From NCBI GenBank assembly GCA_030706735.1, contig JAUZNZ010000002.1, positions 62,001 through 126,000 of the forward strand: a stretch of 64,000 nt of DNA, given 5' to 3'. The stretch comes from Bacteroidota bacterium (GTDB lineage: Bacteria; Bacteroidota; Bacteroidia; Chitinophagales; Chitinophagaceae). Position 1 is the first letter of the stretch, and every line of letters begins with the position of its first letter. The notes beneath the pieces were generated by a model. It was not told the origin of the DNA and did not search any database. It was given only the letters and a program-made list of their open reading frames with translations. The translations under genes were made by a program, and so were the position numbers. Positions 1 through 58,136 of the stretch are shown here, in pieces.

Positions 1-515
1 GTGGTATGATAATGGGCCTTCCAGTTATTCGGATTCTTATACTGATCGGCATAGAAGTATGCGGATGGGTTTTCCAGGGCCATGGCTTTTGCCGTCTGCT
101 GCGCCCCATCCGTGCCCTCGAACCGCGAAGTAAGAATGAGGCGCACCCCCAGGGATTGCAGGATGTCCTTGCGCTCCCGGGAAGCGTTCTCCGGCAGGCA
201 AAGCGCCACCGGGATATTCAGTAAACGGGCAATATGCGCATAGGCGATCCCGGTATTGCCGCTGGTCGCATCCAGTAGTGTGGTTTGCCGGTTGAGCTCG
301 CCGCTTTCAATCGCTTTGCGGATGATCTGGTAGGCAGCACGGGCTTTCACGCTGCCGGACAGCTGCATCCATTCTTTTTTGGCAAACAGCTGCACGTTCC
401 TCCTTTGGAACAAGTGCGTGACCGCATGCAAGGGCGTATGCCCGATCCGCTTTTCGAGGGCCTGGACGGCAGGAAGAAGGTCTGTATCTATTCGATGATG
501 AACGGTCGTTTCCAT
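1..515 (-). CDS. Cysteine synthase family PLP-dependent enzyme (5' part; gene runs off the left edge)
   Basis: The first 171 residues are visible, reading leftward from an ATG at 515-513. The fold type II PLP signature is clear: the lysine motif SGSVKARAA with the Schiff-base lysine at about residue 57, and the phosphate-binding loop TSGNTGIAY at about residues 84-92. These match the CysK/CysM/cystathionine beta-synthase superfamily, which makes cysteine from O-acetylserine (or a related activated serine) and sulfide in the cytoplasm. The exact substrate cannot be fixed from half a protein. No in-frame ATG is seen close upstream. The gene is preceded by a terminator hairpin and a short reading frame with six Cys codons, which points to control by cysteine supply and supports the cysteine-synthase assignment. 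Threonine dehydratase was considered because the fold is shared, but the motifs fit less well. Confidence 0.85.
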   Translation of the reverse strand, partial: METTVHHRIDTDLLPAVQALEKRIGHTPLHAVTHLFQRRNVQLFAKKEWMQLSGSVKARAAYQIIRKAIESGELNRQTTLLDATSGNTGIAYAHIARLLNIPVALCLPENASRERKDILQSLGVRLILTSRFEGTDGAQQTAKAMALENPSAYFYADQYKNPNNWKAHYHT

Positions 516-549: not shown

Positions 550-581
550 AAAATAAAAAAGCCCCACATCAGGTGGAGCTT
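550..581 (-). terminator. Intrinsic terminator acting as attenuator before the cysteine synthase gene
   Basis: On the minus strand the arms AAGCTCCAC (581-573) and GTGGGGCTT (567-559) form a 9-bp stem with one G-U pair and a five-base loop, followed directly by TTTTTTATTT. It lies about 35 bases upstream of the cysteine synthase start and just after the leader peptide stop. No other gene ends here, so it most likely works as an attenuator. The segment CTCCACC (578-572), shared between the 5' arm and the loop, is also perfectly complementary to GGTGGAG at 633-627 inside the leader peptide frame, giving an alternative 7-bp antiterminator. Confidence 0.85.
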
Positions 582-611
582 CTTAATATTGTTTGTTTAC
601 AGTTAATCAGC

Positions 612-698
612 CTATAAGAGGTCATCCTCCACCAAAATAACCATGCCTTGCCGACAACAGCAACAACAACAAGTACTATTTGAGAATGCCTGGTTCAT
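612..698 (-). CDS. Cys-rich leader peptide (28 aa), attenuator control peptide
   Basis: A 28-codon frame starts with ATG at 698-696 and ends with TAG at 614-612. Codons 10-15, at 671-654, are six consecutive cysteine codons (TGT TGT TGT TGC TGT TGT). The second half holds the antiterminator segment GGTGGAG. The spacing fits classical attenuation. A ribosome stalled on the Cys codons leaves 633-627 free to pair with 578-572 and so disrupts the terminator. A ribosome that reaches the stop covers 633-627 and lets the terminator form. Cys-codon leader peptides before cysteine genes are known in Actinobacteria; this example is a Bacteroidota one. Translation itself is inferred, since there is no strong Shine-Dalgarno, as usual in this phylum. 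Confidence 0.75.
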   Translation of the reverse strand: MNQAFSNSTCCCCCCRQGMVILVEDDLL

Positions 699-722: not shown

Positions 723-758
723 CAAATGTAAGATAATAGTTTTATATTTCCTACAAAA
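723..758 (-). promoter_or_regulatory. Probable promoter of the cysteine leader/cysteine synthase transcript
   Basis: On the minus strand TACATTTG (730-723) matches the Bacteroidota -7 consensus TAnnTTTG. TTTTG lies at 758-754 with a 23-bp spacer, longer than the usual 19-21. A start 5-7 bases below the -7 element would leave about 20 bases before the leader peptide ATG. The sequence also lies upstream of the divergent rpiA. Confidence 0.5.
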
Positions 759-2497: not shown

Positions 2498-3740
2498 CCG
2501 CACCGGCGGCTCGCCCCCGGGAAGATCGAGGCTTATGCGGTCGCGTGACGGCCGAGAGCTCATTTTCCTGCCTGAAATAAAAGGTGAATAGAAAGAACAA
2601 CACGCGAATGAGCTGGTAGGCGAGGCGTTGCAGGATCTTATGCCAAAGATTGTTGTGCGAAAAGAACGACTCCGGCGTGACCCGGACGCAATGCTTCCGG
2701 ATGATGGCATCCAGTTCTTCCTGCACGCCCCCCGCAAAGGCCTTGTTCCGGACATCGAGGTTTAATTCCACGCTGGCATAAGCGCTTATCCTGTTCACGT
2801 TATACGAACCGACCGTCGCCCACAACCCATCATAGACGGCTATCTTTCCGTGCAGGACGGTCTCCTGGTATTCGTAAATCTCAATCCCGTTCCGGAATAG
2901 CCAGCGATACATGTATCGCTCGGCCAGCCTGGCCACCTTTACGTCCGAGACCGCTCCCATGATGATCCTGATCTTCACGCCCCTCTTGGAGGCCTGAGCC
3001 ATTTTCCTGCGAAAGAGCTCCCCTGGCAGGAAATAGCTGGACATGATGGTGATCCGGTGGCTGGCATAGCGAAACATCTGTAAATAGCTTCTTGAGATCT
3101 CCGCCTTGCGTTGCACCCAGTCATTCCGCCGTACCCTGACCATGCACTCTTCTCCGGCCGTGATGCCCGGCATCCAGGGGATGACATCCGCATTAACGCC
3201 GGTCTTCCAGTAGGCCTTCCTCCACATGTCGTTGCAGATTACATGCAGCCTGAGCGCGGCCTCCCCCTCGACATAGATACCCCAATCCAGCCATCCCTTG
3301 GCATCGCCGATATCATTGTATTTATCGCTGATGTTCACTCCGCCGGTAAGCCCATACGAGGCGTCGGTGACCAGGATCTTATGATGCATTCGCCGGCCCA
3401 GATAAAAATGGCGGCTTCTGAACAAGGGCCAGAACCAACGGAACCGTACACCCGATTGCTTCAACTCCCGGATAAAAGGCTTGGAAAGATCCTGTGACGC
3501 ATATCCATCCAGCAGCACGAAGACGCTGACCTGCCGGCGCGCAGCGTCCATCAGGGCATTGGCAACCATCCGTCCCGTTTCATCCTCGGTGAAGATATAG
3601 GTCTGCAGGTGGATCGTGGTCCGGGCCCGATCGATCAGGTCCTTCAGCCGGGAAAAATACTCATGCCCGCCATGCACAAGCCTGACCTTATTGTGATGGG
3701 TATAACCGGCCAATATTTTCGGTGTCCTTTTTTTGCGCAT
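2484..3740 (-). CDS. Phospholipase D-family protein, cardiolipin synthase-like
   Basis: About 418 residues from the ATG at 3740; an in-frame TTG 13 codons upstream (3779) is less likely. Two HKD motifs are intact: H-x-K-x4-D at about 119/121/126, followed by the GG typical of the family, and again at about 297/299/304, followed by GSYN. Two HKD motifs in one chain are typical of bacterial cardiolipin synthases, which condense two phosphatidylglycerols. The N-terminus lacks the usual pair of strong transmembrane helices, while the C-terminus has a hydrophobic stretch (about 380-395). A soluble or peripherally bound PLD-type transferase or nuclease is therefore also possible. Confidence 0.8.
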   Translation of the reverse strand: MRKKRTPKILAGYTHHNKVRLVHGGHEYFSRLKDLIDRARTTIHLQTYIFTEDETGRMVANALMDAARRQVSVFVLLDGYASQDLSKPFIRELKQSGVRFRWFWPLFRSRHFYLGRRMHHKILVTDASYGLTGGVNISDKYNDIGDAKGWLDWGIYVEGEAALRLHVICNDMWRKAYWKTGVNADVIPWMPGITAGEECMVRVRRNDWVQRKAEISRSYLQMFRYASHRITIMSSYFLPGELFRRKMAQASKRGVKIRIIMGAVSDVKVARLAERYMYRWLFRNGIEIYEYQETVLHGKIAVYDGLWATVGSYNVNRISAYASVELNLDVRNKAFAGGVQEELDAIIRKHCVRVTPESFFSHNNLWHKILQRLAYQLIRVLFFLFTFYFRQENELSAVTRPHKPRSSRGRAAGAVNRP

Positions 3741-7001: not shown

Positions 7002-7652
7002 ATGAAGGGAACTGTCGTTTTGCCGCCTGACGGCCTCTCCGAGGGAGAGGTGATCAACCGCATTCTTGCGGGGGAAAAGCAGCTGTTTGAATGGATCGTA
7101 AGGCGATATAATCAACGGCTCTTCCGGATCGGCATGTCGCTGTTGAAGGACGAAACGGAGGTAGAGGACGCCATGCAGGCCACGTATGTCAAAGCCTACG
7201 AGCACCTTCGGCAATTCGAGCGGCGATCCTCCGCCGGCACCTGGCTTGTAAGGATCCTGTTGAATGAATGCCTGGCCCAAAGGAAAAGGCGGCAGAAATT
7301 GCAGACGCATCACAATACCGAAGAAATGGAAACCAAACCAGCCATACATACCCCGTCGAATATTCTTCTCAATAAGGAGCTGGGAAAGGTTCTCGAAAAT
7401 GCGCTGGCGCAATTGCCGGAGAAATACAGGGTGGTCTTTGTCTTGCGCGAGATCGAGGAAATGAGCACCCGCGAGACCGGGGATGCGCTGGGCATCGAAG
7501 AGCCGAATGTAAAGGTCAGACTGAACAGGGCCAAGACCATGCTCCGCGACAATCTGAACGGATATTTTAAAGAGACTGCCTATCCATTTCACCTTACGCG
7601 CTGCGATCTCATGGTGGAGCGCGTATTCCGCGGGATCGCCTCCTTGCCCTGA
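7002..7652 (+). CDS. ECF RNA polymerase sigma factor (sigma-70 family)
   Basis: 216 residues. Region 2 runs from about 25 to 75 (LFEWIVRRYNQRLFRIG, then the acidic ATYVKAYEHL segment); region 4 from about 140 to 190 with LPEKYRVVFVLREIEEMS and the helix-turn-helix TRETGDALGIEEPNVKVRLNR. A C-terminal tail with the FHLTRCD motif follows, as in many Bacteroidota ECF factors. No anti-sigma gene lies beside it. It faces away from the DoxX-like gene, with matching promoter boxes on both sides, suggesting autoregulation. A GTG 16 codons in is an alternative start. Confidence 0.85.
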   Translation: MKGTVVLPPDGLSEGEVINRILAGEKQLFEWIVRRYNQRLFRIGMSLLKDETEVEDAMQATYVKAYEHLRQFERRSSAGTWLVRILLNECLAQRKRRQKLQTHHNTEEMETKPAIHTPSNILLNKELGKVLENALAQLPEKYRVVFVLREIEEMSTRETGDALGIEEPNVKVRLNRAKTMLRDNLNGYFKETAYPFHLTRCDLMVERVFRGIASLP

Positions 7653-57830: not shown

Positions 57831-57895
57831 AAAATAGAATTAATCGTTCGGTCGATCTGGAGAAATGCTGCGAAATGGAGGGATCGTAAAATCTG

Positions 57896-57986
57896 ACTAC
57901 CTTCCCTGCGCAGGCATTACCCTGTTCAGGTTCTACGGGTATTATCTCAGCCATTCCGCCCCTGGCGGAACAGCACCCCGAGGAAT
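57896..57986 (-). ncRNA. TPP riboswitch (THI box)
   Basis: On the minus strand GGGGTGC ... GGCTGAGA ... ACCC ... GAACCTGA ... CAGGGTAATGCCTGCGCAGGGAA follows the THI-box consensus, including CTGAGA (57950-57945), the ACC/GGT pairing and the pyrophosphate-binding GCAGGGA region. It ends about 60 bases above the TonB receptor ATG and likely controls its transcription or translation. A -7-like TATCTTCG is at 58031-58024. Confidence 0.92.
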
Positions 57987-58136
57987 CTGAGAACATGCCG
58001 GAAGTACGACTGCCGGCACAGAACGAAGATAGCGCTTTTTTCGAAGGGTTCGCCCGGCACGTGTAACTTTTATCCGGGTCAACCGTTCTATGCAACAAGT
58101 TCAGGTTCCCGGAGTCTTTATTAAAACCAACTAATC

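Follow-up and report, generated by a model that had tools for sequence, protein, structure and literature searches.

Does a short open reading frame with six consecutive cysteine codons, lying upstream of a cysteine-synthase-family gene in a member of the Chitinophagaceae, sense cysteine, and by which mechanism? We have addressed this question in a stretch of 64,000 nucleotides from assembly GCA_030706735.1 (contig JAUZNZ010000002.1, positions 62,001 to 126,000; hereafter the window, whose numbering is used throughout) and in the genomes of related bacteria. The initial annotation had suggested that the geometry of the site fits ribosome-stall attenuation, a proposal that the anatomy, spacing, conservation and lineage-specific co-variation presented here support. 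By far the best explanation, and in our view a very probable one, is a ribosome-mediated (leader-peptide) transcription attenuator that would sense charged tRNA-Cys.

Organization of the leader region and of the downstream operon

The elements of the putative attenuator are located between rpiA and the cysteine-synthase-family gene, in the order promoter-like box, ORF, stop codon and terminator (Table 1). Re-reading of the sequence confirmed three earlier observations: the 28-codon minus-strand frame with six Cys codons at 671-654, the position of GGTGGAG (633-627) inside this frame, and a 9-bp terminator with a U run (581-550) whose CTCCACC (578-572) is complementary to GGTGGAG. No run of six Cys codons occurred on either strand in 50 mononucleotide shuffles of the window. 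As rpiA is divergent, the terminator closes no gene except the leader. The folding energy of its hairpin is -12.3 kcal/mol, and the pairing of the leader tail with the 5' arm of the terminator amounts to -14.0 kcal/mol. For the transcript start, the sequence offers a single clue, the box at 730-723, a match to TAnnTTTG, which we take to be the Bacteroidota -7 promoter consensus; it would place the start above both the leader ATG and the Cys run. Of the 86 leaders found in relatives (see below), 31 have the same motif no more than 60 nt above them, as against 108 of 4300 random windows. An Rfam search of the leader region returned no family at gathering score, Trp_leader (18.7 bits, threshold 41) and Phe_leader (18.3 bits, threshold 55) both remaining below their gathering thresholds. 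The small local hairpin at 629-618 was considered as a conserved anti-antiterminator and rejected in that role (76.7% of cells paired, covariation not above shuffles); we list it as a possibility. Elsewhere in the window, an ordinary TPP riboswitch is present on the minus strand (57886-57990, 72.8 bits).

Table 1. Features of the leader region, of its operon and of related loci. Positions refer to the window unless a locus is named.
Feature	Position	Strand	Remark
TAnnTTTG promoter-like box TACATTTG	723..730	minus	match to the Bacteroidota -7 consensus
Leader ORF, 28 codons, MNQAFSNSTCCCCCCRQGMVILVEDDLL followed by a stop	612..698	minus	ATG 698-696, TAG 614-612; conserved in orthologues
Regulatory codons, six consecutive Cys codons TGTTGTTGTTGCTGTTGT	654..671	minus	
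Antiterminator 5' segment GGTGGAG	627..633	minus	part of the leader tail; ends 12 nt upstream of the stop codon
Possible small local hairpin GAGG-ATGA-CCTC	618..629	minus	would compete with the antiterminator; weakly supported
CTCCACC	572..578	minus	partner of 633-627 (antiterminator) or, mostly, part of the terminator stem
Intrinsic terminator AAGCTCCAC/CTGAT/GTGGGGCTT plus T run	550..581	minus	covarying pairs in a 29-sequence alignment
cysM-like gene (PLP-dependent enzyme)	1..515	minus	ATG at 515; crosses the window edge; full length 312 aa
rpiA	769-1458	plus	
ThiS-ThiF-rhodanese ORF	L141:2705-4126 = G000:C13 59704-61125	minus	just beyond the window edge
Two leaders plus terminators in series above cysM	L094, L096, L098, L100, L103, L106, L113, L120, L121, L122, L123, L126		
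Cys leaders with terminators, L087 (Saprospiraceae)	7256-7440 and 2792-2990		before a PAPS-reductase (cysH-like) gene and a peroxiredoxin gene

The product of the first gene is a PALP-family enzyme, with CysM and CysK as its nearest models (scores below their cut-offs), and further operon products match a Prok-JAB protein and a ThiS-ThiF-rhodanese protein. The previous assignment to the cysteine-synthase family thus holds; family models and gene order indicate that the gene opens a CysM-JAB-ThiS/ThiF-rhodanese operon and is not an ordinary cysK. In mycobacteria, cysteine is made by a CysM-CysO-Mec-MoeZ pathway, and the gene order and families seen here resemble this CysO-type route. By family models, the operon below the leader is predicted to make the cognate amino acid, and the functions of its genes (cysteine synthase family, JAB peptidase, ThiS-ThiF-rhodanese) match cysteine sensing. 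Of 396 genomes sampled from the order, 68 carry this cysM (E ≤ 1e-90). In the source organism, the ThiS-like sulfur carrier is fused with ThiF and rhodanese domains in one ORF of 474 aa, so that its Gly-Gly is internal; the neighbouring JAB peptidase might release the carrier. Relatives such as L016 and L017 have separate ORFs in place of this fusion.

From this arrangement we infer a transcript start near 720, translation of the leader, stalling and read-through, as follows. RNA polymerase would start and a ribosome would follow it through the leader. With ample Cys-tRNA, the ribosome would reach the stop codon (614-612) and cover GGTGGAG (633-627); CTCCACC would then pair with the downstream arm, and the terminator (581-550) would end transcription before cysM. 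With scarce Cys-tRNA, the ribosome would stall in the Cys run (671-654) and leave GGTGGAG free to pair with CTCCACC, so that the polymerase would read on into the cysM operon.

Conservation of the leader upstream of cysM

Leaders were sought with a strict detector requiring ATG, GTG or TTG, at least three consecutive Cys codons, a stop, and a terminator with its 5' arm -15 to 80 nt past that stop. A search of 58 relatives gave 30 loci, 24 of which pass (L001-L024, the window included); one of these (L023) has its leader about 1 kb upstream, before another gene. In a further locus, L026, a CC-PT-CC leader and a terminator can be recognized by eye, the contigs of L025 and L027 end inside the gene, and the more distant CysK-type genes of L028-L030 (38-40% identity) have no leader within the stretch read. 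A second search, with one genome per species, was read for its best 80 loci, the window's own genome not being represented among them, from Chitinophagaceae, Saprospiraceae, Cytophagales and a few Flavobacteriales. The strict detector found 86 leaders in 73 of these best 80 loci, and the leader starts at most 450 nt from cysM in 69 of them. The remainder of the 80 loci (both strands, about 1.17 million bases) held a single match, located before a PAPS-reductase (cysH-like) gene and itself a Cys leader that has its own terminator. Among the detector-negative loci, L105, L114 and L139 have just 59, 175 and 33 nt of upstream sequence, L092 has a seven-Cys leader whose terminator has an offset U run and which is followed by a peroxiredoxin-like gene, L080 and L135 have CC-type leaders in a looser scan, and L140, with another gene just upstream, has no leader in 1.5 kb. 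Conservation in orthologues of the Cys run and of the two pairings, on which the initial reading depended, is therefore observed: the detector is passed in the two sets as counted, and the pairing co-varies between lineages (see below), all of these loci being related by descent.

The leader frame and its TGY codons are conserved in relatives, with Cys runs of 3-8 codons across the 86 leaders (TGT 330, TGC 102), and in both the window and the relatives an intrinsic terminator is present between the leader and the first structural gene. Some members might also sense methionine, the signal then being starvation for sulfur amino acids; this is compatible with attenuation by charged tRNA-Cys, and we regard it as doubtful. 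Eight leaders from seven loci (L093, L094 twice, L100, L116, L118, L134, L137) do have MM or MMM directly at the Cys run or no more than one residue away, but no Met run occurs in the window leader or in 78 of the 86 leaders of relatives, and the tails of L134 and L137 do not outperform shuffled ones in pairing. Met runs placed before or one residue from the Cys run, such as MMMWCCC and MMMCCC, are seen among L134, L137, L094 and L100, which possibly read both sulfur amino acids; the L134 and L137 leaders lie some 1.1-1.2 kb above cysM.

Alternative pairing of the leader tail and the terminator

Across the 86 leaders, the tail pairs with the 5' arm of its own terminator at a mean of -13.4 kcal/mol, compared with -8.5 kcal/mol for base-shuffled tails (Wilcoxon p 6e-15) and -9.7 kcal/mol for tails taken from other loci (p 6e-10). 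Individually, 49 of the 86 beat their shuffles at p≤0.05, while for 20, including L134, L137, L125 and L097, many shuffles pair equally well (p>0.2). An alternative antiterminator pairing that excludes the terminator is found in the window and in the relatives, the window's own leader taken alone giving p 0.06, 0.085 and 0.04 against shuffles in three runs of the duplex test. Because the loci are related, the leaders were grouped into 7 clusters by terminator sequence (one cluster holding 70 of the 86), one representative was drawn from each, and tails were permuted among them; each of 20 random draws favoured the own pairs over the permuted ones (p 0.00005-0.021, median 0.0005). Terminator and leader tail thus change together between lineages. 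By eye, the pairing is kept with changed letters: GGTGGAG/CTCCACC in the window, TTTCAGCG/CGCTGAAA in L024, CCGGGAG/CTCCCGG in L026 and GGAAAGG/CCTTTCC in many others.

When 29 Chitinophagaceae sequences are aligned, the terminator shows compensatory changes beyond those of any shuffle. The antiterminator is nearly invariant in these sequences (93.6% of cells paired, compared with 42-63% after sliding), and its covariation is not above shuffles; since this helix hardly varies among close relatives, covariation there is uninformative, and support comes from the comparison between lineages. Two further approaches were set aside. A partition-function model of the stalled versus the terminating ribosome was not retained as main evidence, since the smaller amount of free RNA by itself produces part of the difference and pairing occurred with shuffled tails as well: mean arm pairing was 0.90 for real and 0.71 for shuffled tails, and in the window itself 0.79 for the real and 0.82 for shuffled tails. 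Pairing of the Cys run with a CAA-rich spacer exceeded shuffles in 28 Chitinophagaceae leaders (p 5e-5) and not in the other 58 (p 0.15), and was rejected.

These results bear on whether the hairpin is incidental and the Cys leader acts instead by translation attenuation or through Rho, as proposed for the Cys leaders of Actinobacteria. Such leaders do exist without obvious terminators (PMC1262725, in part of its text), and cysteine genes of M. smegmatis are described as under translation attenuation (PMC13236596, likewise in part). Here, however, a U-tailed terminator is kept 19-62 nt past the leader stop in all 86 leaders, within the -15 to 80 nt that the detector allowed, its 5' arm co-varies with the leader tail, and it carries compensatory changes in close relatives; we thus consider this alternative highly improbable. 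Less probable still is a role for the Cys-rich peptide in its own right, as a small protein with a function or with metal- or thiol-sensing activity, or as an arrest peptide that responds to a signal different from Cys-tRNA. Close relatives do have similar VIxVEDDLL tails, and poly-Cys could bind metals or thiols, but outside these relatives little besides the Cys run is kept by eye, RNA pairing could account for the conservation of the tail, and genes for cysteine and sulfur assimilation lie downstream.

Transcription attenuation by a stalled ribosome also makes demands on spacing. In the 86 leaders, the antiterminator segment starts at a median of 14.5 nt past the Cys run and ends at a median of 11 nt before the stop, and the terminator starts at a median of 28.5 nt past the stop. 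With assumed footprint values, a ribosome that pauses on the second Cys codon covers no part of the segment in 85 of 86 leaders; for a ribosome positioned at the stop, the overlap with the segment is 4 nt or more in 58 of the 86, the segments of the other 28 not being within the assumed footprint. The window segment, ending 12 nt before the stop, falls inside this footprint, a spacing suited to such a switch. The parts, their spacing, their conservation and the lineage-specific co-variation of the two alternative pairings, all read from sequence, together argue for the proposed mechanism.

Serial leaders and Cys leaders before other genes

Two strict leaders occur in 13 of the best 80 loci. 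In L083, a peroxiredoxin-like gene separates them; in the other twelve, both are in one leader region (Table 1). A promoter box is found above the first leader in 6 of these 12 loci and above the second in none (Fisher p 0.014), and its restriction to first leaders is suggestive of a single transcript with two attenuators in series. In six loci (L100, L103, L106, L120, L122, L123), the tail pairing of both leaders reaches p≤0.1, and in the remaining six one of the two is weak. A similar pair is seen by eye in L022, whose first leader alone passes the detector.

Cys leaders also precede other genes. They are found before peroxiredoxin genes in L116 and L087 (family model; the L087 leader by eye only), before peroxiredoxin-like genes in L106, L092 and L083 (by likeness), and before an EamA transporter in L134 (model) and L137 (likeness), the tail pairing of these last two being unsupported. 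The further leaders of L087 (Table 1) suggest a regulon.

Scans beyond cysM were made at two scales. The source genome contains 45 matches to four Cys codons, read in 44 loci (L176-L219), of which the window site alone passes the leader detector. The longest run in this genome, eight Cys codons in L178, was rejected as a leader, since it lies antisense to a poly-Gln segment of a long frame. Two phylum-wide DNA pattern scans matched 67 and 66 of 392 genomes; these matches look mostly like chance, several genomes giving matches to a backward control as well. Among the 30 loci kept from the first scan, four pass the detector: the window, L032 (a cysM leader like that of the window), L047 (whose would-be terminator overlaps the frame) and L058. 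In the last (genome G197), a CCCC leader and terminator precede a possible outer-membrane protein gene, which may be chance. The 30 loci kept from the second scan gave one pass, again the L032 site. Four additional matches of the 67-genome scan were picked by eye. L142, with a Cys leader before cysK (own pairing -15.7 kcal/mol), and L143, with one before a uroporphyrinogen-III methyltransferase/siroheme operon (-28.2 kcal/mol), are convincing, 0 of 200 shuffles being as good in either case; L144 and L145 were not convincing on reading and detector check, and were rejected. There is, in our estimate, an even chance of a widespread Bacteroidota cysteine regulon controlled by ribosome-stall attenuators (cysM operons, cysK, cysH, siroheme and peroxiredoxin genes), in which the tandem leaders of some Saprospiraceae and relatives would need two independent stalls and give a steep, AND-type response to Cys-tRNA, and some leaders with Met codons would read both sulfur amino acids.

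Comparison with known attenuators

Classical leader-peptide attenuators control the trp, his, phe, thr, leu and ilv operons, and Rfam holds Trp_leader, Phe_leader and Thr_leader families. The system described here shares with them a leader ORF with regulatory codons, competition between antiterminator and terminator, and a cognate biosynthetic operon; it differs in its amino acid (cysteine), in its host (Bacteroidota) and in matching no Rfam family at gathering score. Within the open-access literature (titles and starts of abstracts, among the matches listed, most subscription journals being outside this scope), no Cys-leader attenuator is described in Bacteroidota, as the initial annotation had supposed; predictions could be held by Canestrari 2020, which is said to deal with Cys leaders in mycobacteria, by Lopatovskaya 2010, reportedly a comparative survey of attenuation, by a 2017 study that reportedly lists 224 RNA motifs, or by supplements. 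The Bacteroid-trp motif (RF01692), which we take to be an attenuator, belongs to the same phylum and to the same suggested kind of mechanism, as do two suggestions that already extend leader-peptide attenuation in general to Bacteroidota: amino-acid operons of Flavobacterium psychrophilum (PMC9723704) and B. thetaiotaomicron sORFs reminiscent of leader peptides (PMC7366714). The passages covered from these two papers and the table entry for RF01692 (PMC2864571) contain no cysteine case.

Control by Cys leaders was correctly attributed to Actinobacteria, where, in part of the source text, the leaders of Mycobacterium, Propionibacterium acnes and Bifidobacterium longum are reported without obvious terminators (PMC1262725); the attribution has to be widened, a Cys-codon ribosome-mediated transcription attenuator, uORFC-8-2, being also predicted before cysS in Rhodobacterales (PMC8632094, in part). 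The Actinobacterial leaders have in common with ours Cys-codon runs in a short ORF before cysteine genes (PMC1262725), and those of mycobacteria are described, in a portion of the text, as leaderless short ORFs under translation attenuation (PMC13236596), whereas here an intrinsic terminator is accompanied by a matching antiterminator. Likewise, uORFC-8-2 shares Cys codons in a uORF, a U-tailed terminator and proposed ribosome-mediated transcription attenuation; as presented in part of that article, it has two tandem Cys codons in a stem and occurs only before cysS and only in Rhodobacterales (PMC8632094), while in the Bacteroidota leaders the Cys run has 3-8 codons and the operon that follows is one for cysteine biosynthesis, its first gene being cysM-like, not cysS.

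Significance for the Bacteroidota

Amino-acid attenuators are a known kind of regulator; the combination of amino acid, operon and phylum, together with the serial leaders, looks new within the literature searched. The leader is a candidate cysteine-synthesis sensor for Bacteroidota. Because leader-peptide attenuation depends on a ribosome that closely follows RNA polymerase, a conserved, co-varying family of such leaders would be evidence for transcription-translation coupling in this phylum, whose members largely dispense with Shine-Dalgarno pairing. The serial leaders, finally, would offer a natural test of how such switches combine.
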